DNA of 64,000 nucleotides. It comes from an uncultured Kordiimonas sp. (lineage in GTDB: Bacteria; Pseudomonadota; Alphaproteobacteria; Sphingomonadales; Kordiimonadaceae). Every line of letters begins with the position of its first letter. Positions within the stretch are counted from its first letter, which is position 1. The stretch lies in assembly GCA_947503575.1 (NCBI GenBank), contig CANNDZ010000001.1:1674001-1738000 (forward strand), in the 5' to 3' direction. Below are positions 699 to 58,584 of the stretch, in pieces. A program made the position numbers and the translations under genes. The notes under the pieces were generated by a model. It made no database searches. It was given only the letters and a program-made list of their open reading frames with translations, and had not been told where the DNA came from.

Positions 699-3449
699 TC
701 AGCTACCGTTTACCTCAAGCGCCTTGTCGATCAGAAAAGCGACATGGTCGCGATGCGCCCGCGTTGCCGCGTTGCCCCGCCACCGTGCCATACTGCTGCG
801 AATTTGGCGCAGATTTGAAAAGGCATTTGACCGCGCGACGTAATCATACTGCCCCATATTCATTATATTAATCAGGCCCTTAACATACATGATCTGCAGC
901 ATTTGCCGGTGGCTGTTAACGGCGCTGCGGCTATCGTCCTCAAAAATGGCGGCTGTTACGTCGGCCAAAACCTCGGTGACACTGTAGCCGTTGCCATACA
1001 AGCCGCTGTCAGTCATGCGCTGCATTGTGGTGGGGTGCAAAATATGGTTCAGGATGTCCGCCTGAATGGCGGCAACACGACCATGGAGTTTCGGGTCTTC
1101 TGTGCGGCCACCATGCAGGAAACCACGATGTTGGATCGCCAGATGCTGCAACAATTGCGGGTCAGCCTGAAAAGCGTCAGGGCCAAGGATATGGTCCCGC
1201 AGCAGTTTCATGGCTTGCCTTTGTTTGGCTTCTTCAACCGGGCGGTAAGGCGCGGTTGCGCCGTCTTGGCCCGCGCGCGCGGTGTCAACATAAACGCCGC
1301 CAATGTAGCGGGATGCCACACGGCCCTGCCACATCATGTCTGCCGTCAGGATAAGATAGGCGTTACGCAGTTCCTGATAGCTTCCGCCGTCTTTGGTGAA
1401 TCGGCGTCTTAATTTGCCCATCGCAGCCCGCGCCAGTTTCAGGCGATCTTCTGCAAATTTGACAGCATCATCGCTCATATCAAAGATATTCACCCGTGGG
1501 TCAATACCGCGACCAGGGGCGCGCATGTCATCTGCGTCATTGGCAAAACCCAGACCTTTTTCCGTGGAGCGCGCCAGATGTGCTTCCCGAACCGCAGGGT
1601 CATCCATCGCCGGGTCGTAGCCAAACTGGATGGCCCATGTGTCATACGGGCCTGGTTTTACAGGATAAAAATAAGCCTGGTCTTCACCGGGAGGCGCAAA
1701 GTTAATGGCGGGATAGTCCATCACCGAACCGGAAAGGCCGTCATCCTGCGCACTGGCATCATAGACTGTGTCATAGTCGCGGGCATGTGTGCCCTTCATG
1801 TTGTGATTGAGGCCGAGCGTGTGCCCCACTTCATGCAGGATGAGATAATACAGCGACTCTTCAACCATCCGGTTGGTTAGGTCCGCGCTTTGGTTTGCGA
1901 CCGCTGCCAGTGTTTTACCTAGCATGGTGTTCAGGTGCAGGTGAGCCCCAAGGCTACAACTGTTGCCATGCTTGGACAGACGCTGCATGAAGCTTTCAGC
2001 CTCAATGCTATCTTCCTGTGCAATTGGCATGATTTCGCCGGGCGCGTTTATGGCGGGCAGCGCAGCCGTTTCAAAAATATTGTTTTGGTTCAATCGGTTG
2101 GTCAGGAACGAATATTCCAGCATGATATCTGCAGCCAGGATTTGCCCGGTGCGGGGGTTGGAAAAACTAGGTCCATAGCCACCAAATGGGGGTTGCGGGC
2201 TTGAGGTCCAGCGCAGCACATTGTAGCGGATGTCCCCTGCGTCCCACGTGGCATCATCGGGCTGAATTTTGACAACGACAGCATTTTTAAAACCGGCGGC
2301 TTCAAACGCCGGATTCCAGCCCTCTGCCGCTTTTTTGATGATCGGGCGTAATTCCTCGGGCGTTGTGTTTTCAATCCACCAAACAATGGGTTCTACAGGT
2401 TCGGAAACCGCGGCTGACGGGTCCTTCTTTACCAAATGCCAGCGGTTGATAAGATCGCGCCATGGCGTTGCCGACTGGCTGGTCTGGTCGTTGACATAGT
2501 CAAGGAAGTAGCCGATGCGGCTGTCGTCCCGGCGGGGAACAAAATCGTTTTCCGGCATGGCAACCAGCGTATGTTGCACACCGACCGTGACGTTTCTTGC
2601 GTCGGTTATGTCAAACCAGTTGCCACGATTAACCGGCGCCGGATTTGAATAAACATAGTCAACCTCAACAGCGGTGTTTTCCGGATAGTTGCGAACAGTG
2701 GTGATTTGTGTTTTGCCGCGGTTAAGCTTTCCAAGGCTGAACAACTGCCCCGGCTGCACGCCGGGTCTTTTGCTGGGGCGAATCTGGTCAAAGGTCTCGC
2801 TTTTGAACAAGCCGTCTGCGTTGATCAGAAAGGCTGTGTCATCTTCATTGTTTGCGCGGATTTTGTTAATCGAAATAACCGCATCAGAAATGTTTGCCTG
2901 TTCCGCGCGCGCCAGATTGTTTTCAGGGTCAAAGTAAAAGTAGGGGTTCTTTTCAATGAAGGCGAGACGGTCGAAGCGTTTTTCGATTGTGATTATTTTC
3001 TGGCTTCGGAACTGGCCCCGGAAATGGCCACCTTCAACAACGCCGTCAGCGATATGAGAGTAATATATGAATTCTTTGCCAAGTTGATCGGCGCGAACTT
3101 CCATGTTGATTGAACCGGTTTTGGGATCGCGGTACAGCTTGAACAAGCCATCCATATAGTCATGATCTTCAACTAGGTCTTCAATCAGCTTCTTATTCTT
3201 CTTTTTTTCCTTCTTTTCGTCATTTTCTTCATCGTCTGACGGTTTTTCTTTCTCGTCATCCGACTCTTTTTCTTCAGGTTCTTCCTGTTTTTTTGAAGCA
3301 GCAGGTTTTTCAGGCTCTTCACCTGGTTTTGGATCCTGCAACAATGCCGCATGCGCAGGCAGCGTTGTCGGTATCGCTGCGATGCAAAAAGCAAGAATGC
3401 TTACCGCACATGTTGCCGCGATCTGCTTCAAAATTTCAGAAAATTTCAT
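699..3449 (-). CDS. secreted zinc metalloprotease, DUF5117/DUF4953 type
   Basis: A 916-residue protein. An N-terminal signal peptide of about 34 residues ends near AHA. It is followed by a very charged Lys/Glu/Asp-rich low-complexity linker (about residues 40-90). The body matches the layout of the DUF5118-DUF5117-DUF4953 family of zinc-dependent metalloproteases. The zinc motif HEVGHTLGLNHN begins at residue 539, a metzincin-like HExxHxxGxxH pattern supplying three His ligands and the catalytic Glu. It is likely periplasmic or surface-exposed and degrades peptides, but the substrate is unknown. It is the last gene of a leftward group that also contains an M1 peptidase, so the two may both serve peptide scavenging. 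The family call is firm; the role is inference. Confidence 0.88.
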   Translation of the reverse strand: MKFSEILKQIAATCAVSILAFCIAAIPTTLPAHAALLQDPKPGEEPEKPAASKKQEEPEEKESDDEKEKPSDDEENDEKKEKKKNKKLIEDLVEDHDYMDGLFKLYRDPKTGSINMEVRADQLGKEFIYYSHIADGVVEGGHFRGQFRSQKIITIEKRFDRLAFIEKNPYFYFDPENNLARAEQANISDAVISINKIRANNEDDTAFLINADGLFKSETFDQIRPSKRPGVQPGQLFSLGKLNRGKTQITTVRNYPENTAVEVDYVYSNPAPVNRGNWFDITDARNVTVGVQHTLVAMPENDFVPRRDDSRIGYFLDYVNDQTSQSATPWRDLINRWHLVKKDPSAAVSEPVEPIVWWIENTTPEELRPIIKKAAEGWNPAFEAAGFKNAVVVKIQPDDATWDAGDIRYNVLRWTSSPQPPFGGYGPSFSNPRTGQILAADIMLEYSFLTNRLNQNNIFETAALPAINAPGEIMPIAQEDSIEAESFMQRLSKHGNSCSLGAHLHLNTMLGKTLAAVANQSADLTNRMVEESLYYLILHEVGHTLGLNHNMKGTHARDYDTVYDASAQDDGLSGSVMDYPAINFAPPGEDQAYFYPVKPGPYDTWAIQFGYDPAMDDPAVREAHLARSTEKGLGFANDADDMRAPGRGIDPRVNIFDMSDDAVKFAEDRLKLARAAMGKLRRRFTKDGGSYQELRNAYLILTADMMWQGRVASRYIGGVYVDTARAGQDGATAPYRPVEEAKQRQAMKLLRDHILGPDAFQADPQLLQHLAIQHRGFLHGGRTEDPKLHGRVAAIQADILNHILHPTTMQRMTDSGLYGNGYSVTEVLADVTAAIFEDDSRSAVNSHRQMLQIMYVKGLINIMNMGQYDYVARSNAFSNLRQIRSSMARWRGNAATRAHRDHVAFLIDKALEVNGS

Positions 3450-3613
3450 GACCCTGATACTCCTTTACTGTCAGTCTTGGCGAAGCCTCTTTGACCAGAC
3501 AGCATGACTTACTAACACTGCTATTTTGCGGGACGGCACAACGGGGTCAATACCCGAAGCCTTCCGTTGGCCTGTGCTAACTCTCGTTTTATCTCATTTT
3601 GTGGTGTTCAAGG

Positions 3614-3961
3614 CTATCGGACACTGCGACGCGCCTTGTCAAACACAGTTATAAAGTCGGCGCAGCCACCGGTTGGCTGACGAACCGTGTAGGCGTCCAG
3701 AATGTTTTTAAACTCTAGGCGAGCCAGTACTTTTTCGTAATCATCCCGGGCGATTGAAGACAGGCGCGCTTCGGCTCTTGCAATAAATTCTTCAACGTCA
3801 TCCGGGTCAAAATTACAGTAGCGCGCGCCACCAGCAATGACGGCGCTGTCCCGCGCGAGTTGCATAAGCTGGGTCTCGGTGGATTGTGCGATGGTCGGTC
3901 CTGTTGCAGACCATGTCATGCAAGTCATGAGGAACAAGAGTTGTATAAATTTTGTCTGCAT
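3614..3961 (-). CDS. small secreted hypothetical protein
   Basis: A 115-residue protein with a clear signal peptide (Lys, then a Leu/Met-rich core, probable cleavage after a TIAQS-type site). The mature part has two cysteines, in YCNFD and GGCADF contexts, which could form a disulfide. The ATG at 3961 is preferred over an upstream in-frame ATG at 4021 because it puts the signal peptide at the N terminus. It lies immediately downstream of a DUF6702 gene on the same strand and is probably co-transcribed with it. I do not recognise a named family. Confidence 0.6.
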   Translation of the reverse strand: MQTKFIQLLFLMTCMTWSATGPTIAQSTETQLMQLARDSAVIAGGARYCNFDPDDVEEFIARAEARLSSIARDDYEKVLARLEFKNILDAYTVRQPTGGCADFITVFDKARRSVR

Positions 3962-4022
3962 ACTGTCTATCCGTTTGCCTGAGCCTAGCGTCGGGTTATT
4001 CCTTAAACAAGTCACGAACATG

Positions 4023-4541
4023 TCAAAAAGTGAACCGAAGGGGGCCGGTTTCCCAATTTATGTCCCCGCCCTGGCGAGTACCATTAACCGTCGCCAGAAC
4101 CGAGTTGATTTGCCCGGCCAGGTCAGGCAGGAAAATCTGGTTCATAAAGTCAATTGACGTGGGGGCTTGTGGCCAGTCTTGCTCCAGATAGGCCACCACA
4201 GTCTGGCCATCAGTTTCGATGCCAAGAAAGATCAGATCAAGGGGAATATCATCCAGCATCAGGTTGATGTTGGACCGCAGGTACGACCCGGTTGCCGCTT
4301 CCAGTTCGCGGAAGTCTTCGTCATTCAAAAAACTCAACCGTTTGTCCAATAATATGGACAGTTTTTCTTCTAATTCGTGGCTATGGATTTGCACGACAAG
4401 TTCGATGGAATTGTCGCTTTCGTTCCAGTCAATCTGGCTAAAACTACTGTAAACATTGTGCGCCTTCAGGGTATGCGCGCTGCTCACAGATAAGACCACC
4501 CCGACAAGCGCCGCGAGCATCAAACGATATCCGATGATCAC
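4023..4541 (-). CDS. DUF6702 family exported protein
   Basis: A 172-residue protein with an N-terminal hydrophobic export signal. The mature start, AHNVYSSFSQIDWN followed by ELVVQIHSHELE, is typical of DUF6702, a family of unknown function in envelope contexts. The start is a GTG whose G is the last base of the upstream cyclase's TAG stop, so the two genes overlap by one base and are probably translationally coupled. An in-frame ATG seven codons in is an alternative start. A role in the envelope is inference only. Confidence 0.7.
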   Translation of the reverse strand: MIIGYRLMLAALVGVVLSVSSAHTLKAHNVYSSFSQIDWNESDNSIELVVQIHSHELEEKLSILLDKRLSFLNDEDFRELEAATGSYLRSNINLMLDDIPLDLIFLGIETDGQTVVAYLEQDWPQAPTSIDFMNQIFLPDLAGQINSVLATVNGTRQGGDINWETGPLRFTF

Positions 4542-5665
4542 TATTCGTATCCTACAACCCGGTTCCGACCATATGTTTTGGCACTGTACAATGCCTTATC
4601 GGCGCGGTCGAGTGCCGGTTCAATACTAGGTTCACCCGGAAGCCACGCAGCGACCCCCATACTTGTCGTAAAGCGAAACACCTCCGCCCCGGCTGCGGTT
4701 TGCATTTGAGTGGTTTGCTTCCTGATGCGCTCTGCCAGGCGGTAAGCTTCGTCCACCGCGCAGTTGGTTAAAATAGCGGCAAATTCCTCGCCGCCCATCC
4801 TGCCCACAAAACCCGCATCAGCAATGGTTTCTTTGATCAACTTGGAAAAGTCCCGGATAGCCACATCACCAGCGGCGTGGCCGTAAGTATCGTTAACACG
4901 TTTAAAATGGTCGATATCCATCATTAAAACCCACAAGGGTTTGGTTTCGCTGGCATCGCTGATTGCTTTCTCCGCAAGAGCCAGAAAACGCCGCCTGTTC
5001 CATATACCGGTCAGCGGGTCTGTGTTGGCAAGCTTTGTTAATTCTGTCTGCTTGTTTTCCAGTTCGGCTTTGGCGTGAAATAGTTGTTCTGCCAATTCTG
5101 CAGTGCGCGCGGCATCTTCTTCAAGCATAGTCTGATGCATAGCGCTGTCGCTGCTTGCCACACTAGCTTGTGTTACGTCTCGCAAAATCCAAATGCGTTG
5201 ATTGGTGCCTTCGATAGGGCGAGTGGTGCGCTCGATAACGCGGCCATCCGTCAGCGTCAATCGGTCCGTAAACTTGATATCCGGCGCGGATAAAACAGCA
5301 TTTAAAACGTCTGCCGCGCTTTGCGGGTCAATCGCCTGGCTTTGCAGCGGCTCCAACAGAGTGGCAGCCGTATCTGCTATTTTGTTAGCTAAAGTAAGCT
5401 GCTTGCAGGCCTTGTTAGCGCCTACCACCTTGCCATTAAGATCTGTGATAAAAATCGCATCCTGAAGGGCGTTGGCATCAATCAACCATCGGTCGTTCTT
5501 TTTGCGACGTTCCTTGCTGCCGAAGCCAGTTAAAATCGCTGAGACGGTTATCAACCCCAGGCCCACGAGCGACAGGATAACCGGATATGCACCAAACGTG
5601 ACCGCCGTGAGCGTGATCGCAGCCAGTGCCAGCGTGGCCAGAATTTTGAATTTGTGCGAAATCAT
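4541..5665 (-). CDS. membrane-anchored PAS-GGDEF diguanylate cyclase
   Basis: A 374-residue protein predicted to make cyclic di-GMP from two GTP. Residues 1-50 hold two hydrophobic segments, so it is inner-membrane anchored. A PAS-like segment follows (about 60-165, with FITDLNGKVVGANKA), then a helical linker and a GGDEF domain (about 205-374). The active-site motif is GGEEF at 291-295, an accepted variant, and the substrate-binding segment around D252 and N258 is intact. The RxxD inhibitory site that usually sits five residues before GGDEF is not conserved, so product inhibition may be weak. The downstream DUF6702 gene overlaps by one base. Confidence 0.9.
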   Translation of the reverse strand: MISHKFKILATLALAAITLTAVTFGAYPVILSLVGLGLITVSAILTGFGSKERRKKNDRWLIDANALQDAIFITDLNGKVVGANKACKQLTLANKIADTAATLLEPLQSQAIDPQSAADVLNAVLSAPDIKFTDRLTLTDGRVIERTTRPIEGTNQRIWILRDVTQASVASSDSAMHQTMLEEDAARTAELAEQLFHAKAELENKQTELTKLANTDPLTGIWNRRRFLALAEKAISDASETKPLWVLMMDIDHFKRVNDTYGHAAGDVAIRDFSKLIKETIADAGFVGRMGGEEFAAILTNCAVDEAYRLAERIRKQTTQMQTAAGAEVFRFTTSMGVAAWLPGEPSIEPALDRADKALYSAKTYGRNRVVGYE

Positions 5666-5810
5666 AGGAACTTGGAGTTGGTTTCTTGCTGCGTGCAGCG
5701 GGATGCGTGGGTGCTCGTGGTTGCTTTCATCGACGGCTAGTTTGGATACTAACCGCCAAATGATACCCTTTGGTTAACGCTGGTGTTTCATAGGCGAGCA
5801 GTCGGCAAAT

Positions 5811-5836
5811 TCCAGAAATCACCAACAATTTCTGGA
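5811..5836. repeat. perfect 9-bp inverted repeat
   Basis: TCCAGAAAT at 5811-5819 and ATTTCTGGA at 5828-5836 form a perfect 9-bp stem with an 8-base loop. It lies between the M1 peptidase stop and the start of the diguanylate cyclase gene, both on the minus strand. No T-tract follows on either strand, so it is not a classic terminator. It could be an operator for the cyclase or an mRNA-stabilising hairpin. Confidence 0.5.
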
Positions 5837-5844
5837 CATCAGAT

Positions 5845-5873
5845 GTCAGGCAATCATTGTCAGATTACCTGAC
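5845..5873. repeat. second inverted repeat downstream of M1 peptidase
   Basis: GTCAGGCAAT and ATTACCTGAC pair over 9 of 10 positions with a 9-base loop. It sits eight bases from the preceding inverted repeat and 16 bases past the M1 peptidase stop. No U-tract is visible. It may protect the 3' end of the peptidase mRNA or be a protein-binding site. Confidence 0.45.
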
Positions 5874-5889
5874 TGTGAGGCTGAAAACC

Positions 5890-8265
5890 TTAATTATCGC
5901 CCTCGTTATTTTGGCTTTCATTCTCTGCCTTGCCTTCCATCGCCTCTTTCATCAGGTTGCGACCCGGGCTTCTTTTAAACAGTTCCACCCGGCTTGTTGT
6001 CGCCTTGGCAGGCCAGCTATTATTGGATGTATCTGCGTCAGCGATTTCCATATAGGGGTCAAGCGTTACCGATGTGATCTGTTTGTTGCGTACCAGCAGT
6101 TTGGTCACCTGTTTTGCGTTTGACCGCCAGATTTCTGCTGGAACTCGGACGTCCTCGCTGCTGCCGTCTGCAAACTCAACTTTTAACACCAACGGCATCA
6201 CGAGGCCGCCTTTGTTTTCAAAGTCGATGAAATACAGCTCATGCCCGAACTTCAGCAGTTCTTTTTCCCAGCCTTTCAGGCCTTTCAATTTGCCCTGGTA
6301 AGCTTTTTTCTGCTTCTCGGTTATGATGAAGTCATCGTTTTCATTGTAAAAATCGATAAGCTCTGGGAAGCGGTCTATCCGGCGCACCATGCCGTCTGCT
6401 TTGTTGCGGGTTTCCGCGACATAGACATTTTCTTTTTCAGCGTCATCCCGTTTGAACTGGTTTTCAACTTCCGGATCACCAGTGTTGATGCGGGCATGTG
6501 TTACCCCTGTAATCGCAATGTCCACATGGTCTGTGGTGTAGAACCAACCACGCCAGAACCAGTCCAGGTCCTTGGCAGAGGCGTCTTCCATGGTACGGAA
6601 GAAGTCTGCAGGGTAGGGACGCTTGAATTTCCAGCGGCGCGAAAACTCCTTGAAGGCAAAATCAAACAGCTCACGCCCCATCACGGTTTCCCGCAGGATA
6701 TTAAGCGCGACCGCCGGTTTGATGTAAGCATTGGGGAAGTATCCCAAAATGCTGTCAGACTGGGTCATAATAGGGGTTTGGTTTGGGCTCACCATATAAG
6801 AAATCGCGCGGTTCGGGTGTCCGTACCGGCTGGGGTAATAGGCCTCCCATTCCCGCTCGGACAAGCTTTGCAGGAAGCTGTTTAGCCCTTCATCCATCCA
6901 GGCCCAGTTACGCTCGTCCGAATTGACGATCATCGGGAAATAGATGTGGCCAATTTCATGGATCACGACAGAAATCAGGCCATATTTCGCGCGTTTGGTG
7001 TAGGTGCGGATTTCTTCGCCGTCTTTTTCTTCAATAACCGGTTTTGGGCCATTGGACGTAATCATGGGATACTCCATGCCGCCGCCAATAGGTCCGTTCA
7101 CTGACCAGGCAACAGGGTAGGGGTACTCAAACGAGTAACGGCTGTATGTTTCCAGCGTGTGCGCGATTGCGTGGGTTGAATATTTGTCCCACAGGGGCAT
7201 TGCCTCGTCTGGATACAGGGACATAGCCATAACGGTGCGGCCACTGTCTGGCATTTTGACACCCATAGCGTCCCACACAAATTTCCGCGATGACCCAAAA
7301 GCAAAGTCCCGCACATTTTCTGCCGAAAATTTCCATGTTTTGGTATCTGTTGTGCGCTCTTTTTCATTCTCCAGCGCTTCTTCCTGCGTGACAATAAACA
7401 CCGGTGTTTCTGAGGTTTCGGCTTCTTCCAGCCGGTTTCTTTGTTCGCGGGTCAATACCTCGCGCGGGTTTTGCAGCTCGCCGGTTGATCCAACGATGTG
7501 GTCTGCCGGTACTGTGATTTCCACGTCATAGTCACCGAATTCCAGTGTAAATTCACCGGTGCCGATAAACTGTTTGTGTTCCCAACCTTTCAGGTCGGTA
7601 TAAGCCGCCAGGCGCGGGAACCACTGCGAAATGAAATAAACATCATTGCCGTCCCGCTCGTAGGGTTCATACCCGCCGCGCGCGCCCATGATTTTGGCTT
7701 CAACAATATTGTACCACCAGTCAATTTCAAAACTGACGCTGTCACCAGGGGCAAGCGGTTCAGGCAGGTCCAGCCGCATCATGGTGTCGCTCATGCTGTA
7801 GCGCAGGTCCCGGCCCTCGGATTGCACACGCGTAACGTTAAAGCCCCAGTCTTTAAATTCCGTGCGGGCGATGTATTCCAGCGTGGAATAAGCCATACGG
7901 TCCTTTGCATTCTGGCCCTGCCGCATGCTGGCAACGGCATCTGAGTGCTTGGAAAACCGGTTCTGGTCCATCTGCAGCCAAAGGTACGTCAGCGTGTCGG
8001 GTGAGTTGTTCTGATACTGAACGCTTTGCGATCCGGTAATGACCCGGTCATTTTCGTTGAGGCTGACCTTGATCGAATAATCGACCTTTTGCTGCCAATA
8101 TTCATGGCCGGGTGCGCCCGAGCCAGTGCGGTAAACGTTCGGTGTCGGCAACTGTTCTTCAAGCTGGCGAAACTTGTCTTCAAATGATCCTTTGGTTTGT
8201 TTAACCGGGTCTGCAGACACAGAAACCGAAATTCCAAATACAGCAAGCAATACCAATAGACGCAT
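5890..8265 (-). CDS. exported M1-family metallopeptidase
   Basis: A 791-residue protein with a signal peptide ending near VSA-DP. The gluzincin signature HEIGH is followed after exactly 18 residues by the third zinc ligand Glu (in WMDEGLNSF). The upstream GGGMEYPM corresponds to the aminopeptidase GxMEN exopeptidase motif. It is therefore predicted to remove N-terminal residues from peptides in the periplasm or outside the cell. The C-terminal part has a Lys/Glu-rich, Asn-rich tail. It is longer than the catalytic core because of N-terminal beta domains typical of M1. It is transcribed leftward, and a 229-bp gap separates it from a divergent lipoprotein gene. Confidence 0.9.
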   Translation of the reverse strand: MRLLVLLAVFGISVSVSADPVKQTKGSFEDKFRQLEEQLPTPNVYRTGSGAPGHEYWQQKVDYSIKVSLNENDRVITGSQSVQYQNNSPDTLTYLWLQMDQNRFSKHSDAVASMRQGQNAKDRMAYSTLEYIARTEFKDWGFNVTRVQSEGRDLRYSMSDTMMRLDLPEPLAPGDSVSFEIDWWYNIVEAKIMGARGGYEPYERDGNDVYFISQWFPRLAAYTDLKGWEHKQFIGTGEFTLEFGDYDVEITVPADHIVGSTGELQNPREVLTREQRNRLEEAETSETPVFIVTQEEALENEKERTTDTKTWKFSAENVRDFAFGSSRKFVWDAMGVKMPDSGRTVMAMSLYPDEAMPLWDKYSTHAIAHTLETYSRYSFEYPYPVAWSVNGPIGGGMEYPMITSNGPKPVIEEKDGEEIRTYTKRAKYGLISVVIHEIGHIYFPMIVNSDERNWAWMDEGLNSFLQSLSEREWEAYYPSRYGHPNRAISYMVSPNQTPIMTQSDSILGYFPNAYIKPAVALNILRETVMGRELFDFAFKEFSRRWKFKRPYPADFFRTMEDASAKDLDWFWRGWFYTTDHVDIAITGVTHARINTGDPEVENQFKRDDAEKENVYVAETRNKADGMVRRIDRFPELIDFYNENDDFIITEKQKKAYQGKLKGLKGWEKELLKFGHELYFIDFENKGGLVMPLVLKVEFADGSSEDVRVPAEIWRSNAKQVTKLLVRNKQITSVTLDPYMEIADADTSNNSWPAKATTSRVELFKRSPGRNLMKEAMEGKAENESQNNEGDN

Positions 8266-46030: not shown

Positions 46031-46590
46031 GGCTATGACTAGGTTGTAGATTTGGGCAATGGCTCAAATTCTGTGCAAGAACAATAAGATATCGGCTTTT
46101 GTTGAACACAAAAAAGGCTTAGCAGAGCCTTGACGGTGTGCGTTTAAACATGGGGAACTAGCAAACCATGAACGAAAAAAGCGTTCATCCGAGGGATTAG
46201 TTGAGTCTAAAGCCGTAAACCAGTCAGTATCTGCACTTCCGTGAATAGCCGCTGCTGTATTGGTCCAGCCTTGGTTAAAGCAATGCACGCCTATGCCGTA
46301 TCGTACCTGTTAGATGAGTTGTTGGAATAACTTGGTACAGTTAATTCTACCGGTTTCAGGCCGACTTTGGTCAGCCATTGCGTTCGGTGCTGTTGCGAGT
46401 GACTAGTGGTTCTTTTCAACCTCCCTAGGGAACTGTCTGCTTACAGCGGAAAAAATCAGTGCAAACTGTTTTAATTACGATAATGCAAAAAGTTCTGTTT
46501 TATGGGATTATTCGGAGAACTAGGTTTTCTATCGCTCTGTAGGTGTGATTGCCCGAGCGGTTATGTAGGATGAACAGGCTGGAGAGTAGA
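46031..46590. other. AT-richer non-coding stretch before nuclease gene
   Basis: No gene is supported in these 560 bases. The base composition becomes AT-richer towards the nuclease gene. At about 46546-46562 the sequence TTGCCCGAGCGGTTA resembles the D-arm start of a serine or leucine tRNA, but no acceptor stem, anticodon arm or T-arm follows. It could mark a former integration edge. Confidence 0.4.
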
Positions 46591-47640
46591 ATGTTTAGCG
46601 ATCAGATCAAAAACTTGGCGGCACAAGTGGACCAAAGAAGTAGTGTCATCAATACCGAAGAGGCTACTAAAACTGCTTTGGTAATGCCGTTTTTGTCTCT
46701 GCTTGGTTATGACGTATTTGACCCGTTGGAGGTGACTCCGGAGTTCACTGCGGATGTCGGCACAAAGAGGGGTGAAAAAGTAGATTATGCCATATCTTTG
46801 GGCGGCGAACTCTCGATTTTGATTGAGTGCAAGGCTTGCAATTCAGACTTATCTGATGCCCATGCCTCACAATTATTTCGGTATTTCGGTACGACAGACG
46901 CTCGTTTCGCCATTTTGACCAACGGAATTCAATATAGGTTTTACACGGATTTGGACAAACAAAATCGAATGGATGAAAGACCATTCTTTATCTTTAACTT
47001 GAAGGACTACGACGAAACAACTCTCTCGGAACTGTCGCGGTTTCGTAAAGAAGTTTTCGACATTGACACGATTTTGGGTAAGGCTACTGGCCTCAAATAC
47101 ATTAATTTGTTGCGAGGATATCTGAAGTCTCAATTCGAGGAACCTGATGAAGATTTTGCCCGCTTTGTGGGTAAGCAAGTATTTTCTGGAAAGATGACGC
47201 AACAAGTCTTGGCTATGTTTCAAGGATTGACCAAAAGGGCGATTGAACAAATTGTTAAAGAGCGTCTAAGAGAGCGTTTTGATCATGTTTTGAAGGATGA
47301 GGAAACAGATTCTGCTCCTGAAGGTGAAGTAAATGATGAAAAAGTTGATAATCTGATTGTAACAACGGACGAAGAGATTTTAGGTTTTCGAATTATCCAA
47401 GCTATTGCGGCTCAAAAGACCGAGTCCTCCAGAGTATTCATCAGAGATGCCAAAAGCTATTGTGCAATTCTGTTTGATGATAACAATCGCAAACCCCTTG
47501 CCCGGCTTCACTTCAATTCTTCATCTAAGCGTATCAGCTTGTTTCACGATGATAACGACAATCTGTTTGAAGTAGCTTCTGTTGAAGACTTGTATCTCTA
47601 TCAAGAACAGATTTTAGCAACAGTGGACAAATATCTATAG
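46591..47640 (+). CDS. orphan nuclease with type I HsdR N-terminal domain
   Basis: A 349-residue protein whose first half (about 20-150) is an HsdR_N_2-type PD-(D/E)xK domain: a Glu in the early helix region, the Asp in GEKVDYAISL, and ELSILIECKAC giving the E-x-K pair. No helicase motor, HsdM or HsdS gene is nearby. The C-terminal half has a helical segment and a beta-rich tail (SYCAILFDDNNRKPLARLHFNSSSKRISLF) seen with stand-alone members. GGAGAG is 6 bases before the ATG at 46591. The gene is much AT-richer than its neighbours, so it is probably acquired. DNA cleavage in defence is inference. Confidence 0.82.
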   Translation: MFSDQIKNLAAQVDQRSSVINTEEATKTALVMPFLSLLGYDVFDPLEVTPEFTADVGTKRGEKVDYAISLGGELSILIECKACNSDLSDAHASQLFRYFGTTDARFAILTNGIQYRFYTDLDKQNRMDERPFFIFNLKDYDETTLSELSRFRKEVFDIDTILGKATGLKYINLLRGYLKSQFEEPDEDFARFVGKQVFSGKMTQQVLAMFQGLTKRAIEQIVKERLRERFDHVLKDEETDSAPEGEVNDEKVDNLIVTTDEEILGFRIIQAIAAQKTESSRVFIRDAKSYCAILFDDNNRKPLARLHFNSSSKRISLFHDDNDNLFEVASVEDLYLYQEQILATVDKYL

Positions 47641-55102: not shown

Positions 55103-55588
55103 ATGTCTGGCGATACTTTAGCCAATCCAAAAGCTGGGGACTATCATCTGGCGCAGTTGAATGTGGGCATCATGCGTGGCCCTCAGGACAGCCCCGAAAT
55201 GGCGGAATTTATGGGGGCGCTGGATGCCATTAACCTGCTGGCGGAAAGTTCGCCAGGGTTTGTCTGGCGATTGCAGGACGAAACCGGTAACGCCACCAGC
55301 ATCAGCGTGTTTGACGATGATACGCTTGTGAACATGAGCGTATGGCAGGACCGCGACAGCCTGTTCAAATATGTCTATAACTCAGGCCACACGCACTATA
55401 TCGGGCGGCGCAAGGAGTGGTTTGAAATGCCTGCTGAGGCGCACATGGTATTGTGGTGGGTGCCGGCGGGGCATGAACCCACCCCCCTTGAGGCAAAAGA
55501 GCGCCTGATGCATCTGCGCAAACATGGCCCGACCGAGCATGCCTTTACCTTCAAACAGCATTTTCCTGTACCGGTTTTGCAGGACTAG
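55103..55588 (+). CDS. DUF3291 domain protein
   Basis: A 161-residue protein with the DUF3291 pattern: YHLAQLNVGIMRGP-DSPEMAEFMGALDAINLLAE-SPGFVWRL, TSISVFDDDTLVNMSVW, and the C-terminal AHMVLWWVPAGHEPTPLEAKERLMHLRKHGPTEHAFTFKQHFP. The family is dimeric alpha/beta-barrel-like with no known reaction. GAGGGAG lies before the ATG. A broken paralogous copy of its last third lies at 56211-56393. Confidence 0.85.
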   Translation: MSGDTLANPKAGDYHLAQLNVGIMRGPQDSPEMAEFMGALDAINLLAESSPGFVWRLQDETGNATSISVFDDDTLVNMSVWQDRDSLFKYVYNSGHTHYIGRRKEWFEMPAEAHMVLWWVPAGHEPTPLEAKERLMHLRKHGPTEHAFTFKQHFPVPVLQD

Positions 55589-55627: not shown

Positions 55628-56113
55628 TTATTTGGCTTTTGTAGCTGGTGCTTTGTCCGACCTTGCAGTAGCTTTTTTCGCGGGCTTTTCTTTTGGGTTT
55701 TCGGCGGGTTTTTCGTTGGGCTTTTGGGTGGGTTTTTCCGCCTCGGTCGCATCTGCCGGCGCGCTGGGCGCGTCATCGTACCGGCCTGTTACCGGGTCAG
55801 ACGCGGCAGGCGACAGGGTGAAAGTGTCGGTAAACAAGGCAATTTTCAGCGTTTGATGATTATCCGCCTGTGAAAGCTGGCACCGCGCCGTGCCGGTGAT
55901 CGCCGTGTCTTTCAGCTGGAAGGACACGGTCCAATCCGTGCCAACCCCGCCGGGGAAGCTGTATTTTTTGTTGCGGGTCGTCAGGCTGTCAGAAAGCGCG
56001 TTGTCCTGTATCAAGGGGTGCACGTCCCCGCCGACAGTTACCGACAGCGTGACATCCTTAATGGTTGTGCCGCATTCGTTGCGGATTGAAACATACCCGG
56101 TTAGGTCTGGCAT
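55628..56113 (-). CDS. hypothetical protein with Pro/Lys/Glu-rich tail
   Basis: A 161-residue protein. The first 105 residues look beta-rich (YVSIRNECGTTIKDVTLSVTVGGDVHPL, WTVSFQLKDTAITGTARCQL) and may form an Ig-like fold with two cysteines. The last 55 residues are low complexity with repeated PxEKPAxxPKEKPA-like units and a basic end. No signal peptide is visible. I do not recognise the family. A GGGGG-type site precedes the ATG. Confidence 0.5.
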   Translation of the reverse strand: MPDLTGYVSIRNECGTTIKDVTLSVTVGGDVHPLIQDNALSDSLTTRNKKYSFPGGVGTDWTVSFQLKDTAITGTARCQLSQADNHQTLKIALFTDTFTLSPAASDPVTGRYDDAPSAPADATEAEKPTQKPNEKPAENPKEKPAKKATARSDKAPATKAK

Positions 56114-56210
56114 TCTTTGGCCCCCATCATTACGTTGTCATCACCATAACACCCTTGCCGCACCAATGGCTATCACCCAAAACACCAAAACCTCTGATTT
56201 GAATTTCCTA

Positions 56211-56393
56211 GATCGGGCGGCGCAAGGAATGGTTCAAAATGCCAGCTGAGGCGCACATGGTATTGTGGTGGGTGCCCGTGGAGCATGGGAGCACACCCTT
56301 GAGGCAAAAGAGCGCCTGATGCACCTGCGTGAGCACGGCCCCACCGAGCGTGCTTTTACCTTCAAGCAGTTTTTTGAAGCGCCGGTTGACGGA
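56211..56393 (+). pseudogene. remnant of a second DUF3291 gene
   Basis: This stretch closely matches 55400-55580, the C-terminal third of the intact DUF3291 gene: RRKEWF-MPAEAHMVLWWVPV, then LEAKERLMHLREHGPTERAFTFKQFFEAPV. A one-base loss near 56295-56301 shifts the frame, and the first two thirds are missing. It is a decayed paralogue just left of the nucleotidyltransferase pair. Confidence 0.8.
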
Positions 56394-56545: not shown

Positions 56546-56575
56546 TTGATTCCACTATAAGAAAAGTTGTATATT
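56546..56575 (+). promoter_or_regulatory. probable promoter of nucleotidyltransferase pair
   Basis: TTGATT (56546-56551) and TATATT (56570-56575) are separated by 18 bases. The ATG at 56601 would leave a leader of about 20 bases. A TATAAG at 56556 has no matching -35 box. Confidence 0.45.
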
Positions 56576-56600
56576 CATCAGGTGGTTGCAAGGGGGATAT

Positions 56601-57578
56601 ATGCCAGCAACGATTTTTGATGAGCGTCAGGAGTTTTGCTTAGGACGCCTCAATAACCTTAGACAACTTTTGGAAGGTCTCGATCGTGAAGAGCGCTCCA
56701 AAGAGTGTTGTGTCTATGTAGTAGGTTCTTACGCGAGAGACGAGGCAACGATTCATTCTGATTTGGACGCCTTCCTTGTAGCAAGCCCTGCGAAAGGGAA
56801 ATCGATACCGAGGGTTATGGAAGCGCATCTTGTTTCGGCACTTGCTAGTGCCCAGAAAGACATGGGCTTGCCCGACTTTACTGATGGTGGTGAATTTTTG
56901 GAAGTGCACCTTTCGGACAATATGGTTGGTAATCTGGGCCATAGCGAAGACGACTATAAGAATACATTTACTGCCCGAATGCTTCTTTTGCTGGAAAGTA
57001 AGTGTATTTTTAATGAGGCGATTTACCACTCTGTGATACGCAGGGTCGTACAAAATTACTTTAAGGACTTCCACAAGCATTCGTCTGACTTTCAGCCAAC
57101 TTTTCTGATGAATGACATTCTGCGTTTTTGGCGTACACTTTGCCTGAACTATGAACATGGACGACAGTGGAGAGTTGAAAGCGACGCCAGTCGGGCCAAG
57201 GGCCATCTGCAAAATTATAAACTGAAGTTTAGTCGACTATTAACCTGCTTTTCTACTGTCGCACTGCTTTTAAGTAAGGCACCCGGTGTAGAGCCAGATG
57301 ATGTTATAGGCATGTTAAAATTGTCCCCGATGAGGCGATTGCAAATGGCCTGCGAGCACTTTGGGTCACTAAATGGTGATTTAGAGGCTGTCCAACAAGA
57401 ATATGCGTGGTTTCTGAGTTCTTTAGCTAGTAGCAAAGACGAAACTCGCGCGTGGATAATGAATGAGGAAAACCGTGTAGAAGCGTTTGACCATGCATCG
57501 GCGTTTTGTGATAGAATCTATAATATTGTCCGTACAATTGCAGACGAAAGAAATTTAGCTCGGTTTTTGGTGATTTGA
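56601..57578 (+). CDS. polymerase-beta-type nucleotidyltransferase
   Basis: A 325-residue protein with the nucleotidyltransferase core GS-x10-DxD: G42-S43 in VVGSYARDEATIHSDLDAFLV, catalytic D54 and D56, and a probable third acidic residue E101 in FLEVHL. The helical C-terminal half contains ARMLLLLESKCIF and FLMNDILRFWRTLCLNYE, typical of DUF294-like/GlnD-like putative nucleotidyltransferases. It could nucleotidylate a protein, or a small molecule or RNA. AAGGGGGA precedes the ATG at 56601. The gene is AT-rich and abuts a 2H phosphoesterase-like gene with no gap. Confidence 0.8.
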   Translation: MPATIFDERQEFCLGRLNNLRQLLEGLDREERSKECCVYVVGSYARDEATIHSDLDAFLVASPAKGKSIPRVMEAHLVSALASAQKDMGLPDFTDGGEFLEVHLSDNMVGNLGHSEDDYKNTFTARMLLLLESKCIFNEAIYHSVIRRVVQNYFKDFHKHSSDFQPTFLMNDILRFWRTLCLNYEHGRQWRVESDASRAKGHLQNYKLKFSRLLTCFSTVALLLSKAPGVEPDDVIGMLKLSPMRRLQMACEHFGSLNGDLEAVQQEYAWFLSSLASSKDETRAWIMNEENRVEAFDHASAFCDRIYNIVRTIADERNLARFLVI

Positions 57579-58160
57579 ATGAGGTATTTTGGGTTCGTAG
57601 GGGTTCAAGATGCTAAATATCGAACTCTACTGAATGCCGCTATTCTGCTAGCTGATCCATCTGAAAAAACGCCAGTTCATGTAACAGTTTCCGGGCCATT
57701 TTCCGCACGTCCTCGACATAAGGCAGGACAAAACCACGTTGCAGGAGAGAAGATATCTGTCATCGGAGTTGATCGGTTTGTTGGTGCTAAGCAATCCACT
57801 GTGTTTTTGGAATGCGGTTTCCCGAGTGCACGGGGTATTTGGAATAAAAAAGATTATGGTTTTAAGCCTCATCTGACTATTTTTGACGGTAAAGATATAG
57901 AGTTTGCTGACAGACTATATGGTCGATTGCAGAAAAAGCGGCTTTTCTTCAATTTTCGTGCGGGACCATTGTATTTTTATAAATCAGTCTCAGGTCAAAA
58001 GGGGTTTGAGGCCGCACTGAGTTTAGATTTTCGATTGCTCGGTTGTATACTTCCTAACTTGTCCAGTCTCGAGGACTTCAAGAATCTTACAACTGAGAGT
58101 CGGCTATGTGGAATCGAGTTAATTATAGATGAGTGCAACAAGGTACATACCACTGTGTAA
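57579..58160 (+). CDS. 2H phosphoesterase-like protein
   Basis: A 193-residue protein with two H-x-T-h motifs, H34-V-T36-V (PVHVTVSGPF) and H98-L-T100-I (KPHLTIFDG), 64 residues apart, the signature of the 2H superfamily (LigT, CPDase, phage Acb1). Such enzymes open 2',3'-cyclic phosphates, hydrolyse cyclic nucleotides or remove ADP-ribose products. The start codon follows the upstream stop directly, so translation is coupled. The last 32 bases overlap the broken DUF3574 gene. AT-rich like its partner. Family call is by motif, not by search. Confidence 0.68.
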   Translation: MRYFGFVGVQDAKYRTLLNAAILLADPSEKTPVHVTVSGPFSARPRHKAGQNHVAGEKISVIGVDRFVGAKQSTVFLECGFPSARGIWNKKDYGFKPHLTIFDGKDIEFADRLYGRLQKKRLFFNFRAGPLYFYKSVSGQKGFEAALSLDFRLLGCILPNLSSLEDFKNLTTESRLCGIELIIDECNKVHTTV

Positions 58161-58584
58161 GGTATTACTATTTATCACTTTGTTGGCGAAGTTTGGTTCG
58201 GCTACCGTGTCAGCCTGCCCTTCCAATACCCTCGCATGGACGGAAACGCGGTTGTTTTTCGGGCGGGATATTGGCGAAACCGGCGAGGTCACGGACGAAC
58301 AATGGCGCAGCTTTACAGTGGCTGAAATCATCCCGCGCTTTGGTGATGGCTTCACCGTCATAGACGGCGCTGGCTATTGGCAAGGCGAAAGCTGCAAGGC
58401 TGATAATGTCGCCCTTAATGGTGGTTGCGAAAAAACCAAGGTTTTGCTGATCCAGTACCCGCCCGGCGCATAAGCCGACGCCAAGCTGCAGGCGATCACG
58501 CAGGCCTATATCAAACAGTTTGATCAGGAAGCCATCATGCGGTCCGACACGCCCGTATGTACGCAGTTTATTACCCGAGACTAG
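58129..58584 (+). pseudogene. DUF3574 gene interrupted by an in-frame stop
   Basis: The frame reads a signal-like N terminus, then the DUF3574 pattern WTETRLFFGRDIGETGEVTDEQWRSFTVAEIIPRFGDGFTVIDGAGYW up to a TAA at 58471-58473. Past the stop the same frame continues with the rest of the family (ADAKLQAITQAYIKQFDQEAIMRSDTPV) to a TAG at 58582. So a single nonsense change splits a 150-residue gene, unless the stop is read through or is a sequence error. Its beginning overlaps the 2H gene, probably an insertion junction. Confidence 0.8.

Follow-up and report, generated by a model that had tools for sequence, protein, structure and literature searches.

A nucleotidyltransferase and 2H phosphoesterase gene pair from an uncultured Kordiimonas as a candidate adder/eraser module with exchangeable hydrolase partners

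In a 64,000-nucleotide stretch from an uncultured Kordiimonas sp. (assembly GCA_947503575.1, contig CANNDZ010000001.1, positions 1,674,001 to 1,738,000; hereafter the window), a nucleotidyltransferase (NT) gene of PDC-M70A/DUF294-like type (56601..57578, plus strand, ATG to TGA, 325 amino acids (aa)) is followed directly by a gene for a 2H phosphoesterase-like protein (57579..58160, plus strand, 193 aa). We propose, with a probability of roughly 0.5, that the two genes form a mobile adder/eraser module, in which the NT would make a phosphodiester and its 2H partner would hydrolyse it. Relatives of the NT in other genomes lie next to a 2H gene or to genes for other phosphoester hydrolases, and comparison of the sequences indicates that NT and hydrolase partner are inherited as a unit.

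Results

The initial annotation of the window had read a GS-x10-DxD motif with D54 and D56 in the first gene, and H34-x-T36 and H98-x-T100 in the second, which it placed directly after the stop codon of the first. All of this was confirmed. The 325-aa open reading frame (ORF) carries the pol-beta type motif G42-S43-x10-D54-x-D56, with GS42-43, D54, D56, D117, R126, E132, N171-D172, R175 and R212 as its key residues. Its best Pfam match is DUF294 (1e-6, 29.1 bits, cut-off 21), with GS motif and DxD present, accompanied by NTP_transf_2 (4.7e-5, 24.1 bits, cut-off 21). The motifs of the second gene read H34-V-T36 and H98-L-T100, and its ATG at 57579 is the base right after the NT TGA, the two-gene stretch closing at 58160. 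Here the Pfam match is 2_5_RNA_ligase2 (9.6e-5), at 22.9 bits under the cut-off of 27; since both genes match Pfam families, the motifs are not due to chance. Among six relatives of the 2H protein, those of L027 (34.9 bits) and L085 (41.2 bits) exceed this cut-off, L020 and the fused L024 stay under it, and no 2H model matches the fused L043 or L003. The 2H assignment of the second gene is thus predicted from its motifs and from the two relatives over the cut-off, and the PADLOC profile PDC-M70A (residues 22-314, 7.9e-31), together with the motif, identifies the window NT as a pol-beta NT of PDC-M70A type. In an alignment of 87 NTs, G42, S43, R46, G113, R126, E132, Y153, N171, D172, R175 and R212 are kept in all 87, and D54 and D56 in 86 each, and in an alignment of 28 2H proteins both histidines are invariant and a threonine or serine stands two residues on in every row. 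Both window proteins appear intact, the residues conserved in their families being present. Two DEDD-linked NTs, L060 (N54) and L066 (G56), each miss one DxD aspartate.

To what extent the pair is kept elsewhere can be read from a GTDB scan with a 10-member NT alignment, which confirmed 276 relatives, of which the best 80 (L013-L092) were analysed; their ORFs were taken as the longest stop-ended frames and searched with local partner profiles. A 2H gene lies directly downstream of the NT on the same strand in 27 of these best 80. A failure of the two genes to co-occur in other genomes had been named beforehand as a refutation; instead, adjacency is clearly conserved, across Pseudomonadota, Bacteroidota, Acidobacteriota, Myxococcota and Campylobacterota, with one locus (L085) carrying no phylum label. 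NT and 2H genes overlap by 4 nt in 11 of the 27; as starts were set by the longest ORF, overlaps like -185 (L025) and -322 (L077) reflect start choice. Furthermore, a DEDD exonuclease gene lies upstream of the NT in 40 of the 80 (36 on the same strand and four divergent, all of the latter in Actinomycetota), that of L045 matching Pfam RNase_T at 6e-6, and an HD protein gene lies upstream in six, that of L087 matching Pfam HD at 1e-9. Seven loci have neither 2H, DEDD nor HD. Five of them (L015, L037, L038, L082, L092) end at a contig edge on the partner side of their clade, within 29-372 nt, and partners cut off in this way are missed in the tally; the other two (L083, L084), which are near-identical, have a HAD hydrolase gene 31-32 nt upstream.

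Four plasmid NT records extend the set of partners by two proteins of TIM-barrel type, a histidine phosphatase and an HD protein. One TIM-barrel partner (L010) matches Pfam AP_endonuc_2 just above its cut-off, and the other (L009) has no Pfam match and fits the PADLOC model PDC-M70B. The HD and NT pair of L012 occupies a 4.5-kb Escherichia coli plasmid (NZ_CP092257.1), with the HD gene (350 aa) running from 4131 past the record start to 684 and the NT gene at 711-1706; such a pair occurs in one of 5,426 E. coli genomes. NT and DEDD genes were additionally found together on two viral contigs. Searches of plasmids and of viral contigs with the 2H protein were unproductive, and a genome scan with a single 2H sequence returned 41 stretches, none of which was confirmed.

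The partner type follows the phylogeny of the NT. On a tree of 87 of the 91 loci (L004 and L005 were left out as duplicates of L033 and L086, and L046 and L052 as fragmentary ORFs), midpoint-rooted, with bootstrap values still short of convergence and a long branch for the histidine phosphatase row, the partner type changes 13 times compared to 42.9 times in shuffles, none of 200 shuffles being as low. The distance matrices of NT and 2H are correlated as well, with a Mantel r of 0.76 (n = 28 loci) and an r of 0.61 in a core of 21 rows, values reached in 0 of 10,000 permutations each. For L023/L033, the sole pair with unsaturated synonymous divergence (dS) among five tried, the ratio of nonsynonymous to synonymous divergence (dN/dS) is 0.065 in the NT gene and 0.155 in the 2H gene.

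Two further genome samples were not ranked by score. The class sample has the NT in 6 of 289 genomes, with a 2H partner in the window genome and in G128, an HD partner in three genomes of one genus, and an orphan NT in G267, and the phylum sample (398 genomes, E 1e-20) has it in four, namely the window genome and G267, G643 and G646 of one genus. The 2H family profile had no match at E 1e-5 among the 397 other phylum genomes, and the sole other 2H-family match in the class sample adjoins an NT, so that in these samples the 2H never occurs without the NT.

A relation to defence, which the initial annotation had considered possible, is suggested by several features of these loci. The NT is of the PDC-M70A type and the TIM-barrel partner of L009 matches PDC-M70B at 2.6e-106, from which PDC-M70 can be read as the version of the pair made of NT and TIM barrel; the window 2H itself has no PADLOC match at E 5. 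According to the available part of the source, PDCs derive from a guilt-by-embedding screen, with validation pending for most in the core defensome (PMC12988326). Five of the 27 2H loci encode a DNA methyltransferase whose N-terminal domain is the 2H. The fused proteins of L024, L028 and L030 are about 1,240 aa long, with L024 matching type IIG at 5e-177 and L030 (58%) and L028 (45%) aligning to L024 over nearly the full length, and those of L035 and L043 are about 715 aa long and 37% identical to each other, with L043 matching type II at 1.8e-88; the NT tree requires two separate origins of such fusions. L024 (9661-10302) and L030 (9673-10311) have in common a gene (about 212 aa, 53% identity) overlapping the 2H-type IIG fusion; its product has by eye the look of a PD-(D/E)XK nuclease, with no Pfam or PADLOC match.

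The neighbourhood of some 2H loci points in the same direction. Downstream of the pair in L031, a CBASS-like set (SMODS cyclase, two-transmembrane (2TM)/SLATT protein, QueC) extends over 2438-6112, and in L027 a type I restriction R-subunit gene lies 94 nt upstream. Among the matches listed from a PADLOC scan of neighbours (90 ORFs of at least 200 aa at 22 stand-alone 2H loci, 1e-15, without a control set) are a type I restriction enzyme, by its score that of L027, the L031 cyclase and type I specificity, as well as TGT, OGG, DNA methyltransferase and mad6 models. An effector-like 2TM gene lies 3 nt downstream of the fusion in L043 (4.7e-19), and in L028 a SLATT/DUF4231-like 2TM protein is encoded 6 nt upstream of the NT (7e-4, under the cut-off). 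A 2TM/SLATT effector as a general third component was rejected: it is operonic in L028 and L043 only, and that of L031 belongs to the neighbouring CBASS.

In the window, the pair lies in an AT-rich patch, as had been noted, with a GC content of 43.8% vs 52.5% for the window as a whole; 6 of 313 sliding 1560-bp windows are equally low, some of which overlap the pair itself. AGGGGG at 56591..56596 (plus strand), 4 nt 5' of the ATG, is read from the sequence as the likely ribosome-binding site of the NT gene, an alternative TTG start at 56586 would give 330 aa, and a promoter-like TTGATT-18-TATATT (56546..56575, plus strand) has 9 of 12 consensus matches, a weak match, since the region holds five such sites compared to 2.9 +/- 1.6 in shuffles. 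The flanks had been described as a decayed DUF3291 gene and a broken DUF3574 gene. Both were found, but an intact DUF3291 gene (55103..55588, plus strand, Pfam DUF3291 4.2e-58) is present as well, and the decayed one is a partial second copy of its 3' end (56208..56375, plus strand, 85% over 169 bp, frame-broken). Between the two copies lies a minus-strand ORF of 161 aa (55631-56113) with a Lys/Pro-rich C-terminus and no Pfam match; the order is then intact DUF3291, minus-strand ORF, 169-bp DUF3291 3' copy, NT, 2H and truncated DUF3574. The DUF3574 gene (58129..58473, plus strand, Pfam DUF3574 2.2e-14) starts within the 3' end of the 2H gene and is 3'-truncated by an in-frame stop to 114 aa, compared to open frames of 152-265 aa in nine relatives of the genus.

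How the pair came to this site is suggested by the relative G291, in which DUF3291 and DUF3574 overlap by 4 nt right after a gene that by eye resembles thiC, and whose DUF3291 is the closest to that of the window within the genus (81%). Relative to G291 the cassette occupies the DUF3291/DUF3574 junction, and recent acquisition would be the simplest reading. Yet G291 is the only relative in which the two genes are adjacent; in G289, G294, G299, G302, G303 and G306 they are on one contig, about 4 to 14.5 kb apart. The PADLOC NT model, run against 31 relatives (19 of the genus and 12 of the order), gave three matches, the two besides the window being pieces of 47 and 73 residues outside the genus, which leaves the window genome as the only one of 19 genus genomes with the NT; the pair is absent from the other 18. 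Elsewhere in the window, a stand-alone 363-aa HSDR_N-like protein (46549-47640, plus strand, 3.7e-14, no PADLOC match) is encoded in the only other patch with 1560-bp windows below 46% GC.

Discussion

Pol-beta NTs form phosphodiesters, and 2H, DEDD and HD proteins cleave them. In the proposed adder/eraser module, the NT, with its GlnD/DUF294/MntA-type motif and a conserved C-terminal half specific to the family, would transfer one or more nucleotides from an NTP to an acceptor, leaving a phosphodiester, and the 2H would hydrolyse this bond or the product of the NT and thereby reset or restrain the NT, the whole probably serving an anti-phage or stress response. We infer both activities, the substrate, the direction of the restraint and the role in defence from comparison of sequences. 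Because homologous NTs exchange the 2H for DEDD, HD, TIM-barrel or histidine phosphatase partners, the constant need seems to be phosphoester hydrolysis and not one particular fold, and the association of one NT family with phosphoester hydrolases that are not homologous to each other points to the cleaved substrate as what determines the partner. The usual targets of 2H and DEDD enzymes are nucleic-acid ends or small nucleotides, and in view of these partners a protein is a less likely acceptor than an RNA or DNA end or a nucleotide. The initial annotation had already proposed a maker/eraser unit, which is partly supported by conserved adjacency and co-variation. The several unrelated hydrolase folds among the partners fit such a unit better than the pair alone could tell; a reading of the NT as an antitoxin is less likely. 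More tentatively, and at somewhat lower odds than for the pair itself, one NT family may have recruited at least four, perhaps six, unrelated hydrolases (2H, DEDD, HD and TIM barrel, with histidine phosphatase and HAD as possible additions) for erasing a single kind of nucleotide mark or signal, and twice fused the eraser to a DNA methyltransferase, which would amount to a modular, unnamed defence chemistry that conserves the reaction and not the eraser.

Precedents for an NT with an eraser exist in GlnD and in DUF294 genes beside DEDD exonucleases, and a comparison with known systems places the window pair outside PDC-M70 proper, HepT/MntA, CBASS and GlnD. In GlnD, NT and HD are fused in one protein; the window NT shares with the E. 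coli protein the NT motif (87% over 33 columns) and the logic of NT plus phosphodiesterase, with HD partners in one clade of its relatives, whereas the genes are separate here, HD and ACT domains are absent by Pfam and the similarity is confined to the motif, and the pair was not assigned to GlnD for want of the fused HD and ACT domains. In the order searched, five matches include two full-length DUF294_C genes (L158 and L159, from G308 and G315), each of which precedes a DEDD-type exonuclease gene, with CBS and DEDD recognised by eye. The window NT differs from these in having no DUF294_C or CBS match and only a 5.5% profile match with one DUF294 protein, and the DUF294-linked exonuclease cannot be aligned to that of L045 by BLASTP. 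The pair shares a PDC-M70A-type NT with PDC-M70, but has a 2H where the latter has the TIM-barrel PDC-M70B, and was therefore not counted as PDC-M70 proper. The 2H protein aligns with both H-x-T motifs of the LigT/ThpR RNA 2',3'-cyclic phosphodiesterase (hhalign, 105 columns, 25% probability, E 0.00077), yet the two are distant, the window 2H belonging to another family, which is tied to the NT and has a C-terminal part of its own. With the CD-NTases of CBASS the NT has the pol-beta type in common; membership was rejected, as Pfam gives no SMODS match and hhalign 0.6% with one SMODS cyclase. Phage Acb1 is a further example of 2H chemistry. In the literature searched, with partial coverage, we found no paper naming PDC-M70, none on a DUF294 nucleotidyltransferase with an exonuclease, and nothing that describes the NT-2H pair, partner swapping or 2H-methyltransferase fusions; PMC12839542 and PMC7824862 were among the papers covered.

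The chief rival to the adder/eraser reading, which we consider unlikely but serious, is a HepT/MntA-like toxin-antitoxin, in which the NT would be an antitoxin that nucleotidylates a nuclease-like toxin partner, be it 2H, DEDD, HD or TIM barrel. MntA, which polyadenylylates its toxin HepT according to the available part of PMC7641770, has the same GS-x10-DxD spacing as the window NT, and a two-gene cassette, the 4-nt overlaps in the 2H loci, a patchy distribution and a constant unit with swappable partners would all suit such a system. Yet what the partners have in common is phosphoester chemistry and not evident toxicity, a histidine phosphatase being no obvious toxin, the gene order varies with the partner type, and orphan NTs are odd for an antitoxin. 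In addition, the match to the NCBIfam MntA model is weak (0.01, 15.7 bits vs a cut-off of 60), and the window NT, at 325 aa, is three times as long as the 106 positions of that model and has its own conserved C-terminal half. Membership in HepT/MntA (type VII toxin-antitoxin) proper was rejected on this score and on the missing HEPN partner, the window partner matching 2_5_RNA_ligase2 only.

A second messenger is a less probable explanation: the NT would respond to phage attack with an oligonucleotide, linear or cyclic and perhaps 2'-5'-linked, which the 2H or another phosphodiesterase would clear. The effectors would be the restriction-modification part of the fusions, 2TM or SLATT proteins, or proteins encoded elsewhere. 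The 2TM genes beside the L043 fusion and the L028 NT speak for it, as does the action of 2H enzymes on cyclic and 2'-5' linkages (PMC5512222, in its available part). A screen by hydropathy and homology found an operonic 2TM/SLATT gene in just those 2 of 27 2H loci, however, and none beside the window pair, the 2TM protein of L031 is part of a neighbouring CBASS that has a cyclase itself, and the NT is not a CD-NTase. Instead of a switch, the two genes might encode successive reactions in the synthesis or modification of a small molecule, such as a nucleotidyl sugar. In favour of this, TIM barrels and histidine phosphatases often have metabolic roles, and the pair of L011 stands amid glycosyltransferase and MFS genes. 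We regard this reading as improbable, since no biosynthetic cluster was seen beside the window pair (window ORFs, Pfam) or among the neighbours scanned and the 2H is fused to DNA methyltransferases in some loci. That the two genes are chance neighbours in a decaying patch, as the broken flanking genes might suggest, has next to nothing left in its favour and was rejected, given that 27 of 80 relatives retain the neighbourhood, with correlated distances.

Several observations nevertheless weigh against an adder/eraser module with a role in defence. The 80 loci, identified by two peptide patterns, are the best-scoring share of the relatives. The histidine phosphatase partner is a single case (L011), in what seems to be a biosynthetic cluster and with its NT on a long branch of the tree. 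A phage collection had no match for the NT nor for the 2H of L030. The neighbour scan matched 163 PADLOC model families, a number that counts families and not proteins or loci; at least five loci with a stand-alone 2H (L016, L017, L019, L023, L085) adjoin a housekeeping-type gene, and five neighbours from L016, L017, L018, L022 and L085 had no PADLOC match. Finally, in the 10 kb read around each of the NTs of G267 (L008, also L145) and G643 (L146), profiles found no 2H, DEDD or HD and inspection by eye no other hydrolase partner. Both NTs keep the GS...DxD motif; these orphans are real and demand an explanation.

If the adder/eraser reading is right, the computed candidate PDC-M70 would be just one version of a wider system. 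The set of partner folds would then narrow the chemistry, because the product of the NT must be one that 2H, DEDD and HD proteins alike can cut, which would make this product directly searchable. Small two-gene cassettes are on offer for this, including a natural HD and NT pair from E. coli on a 4.5-kb plasmid.

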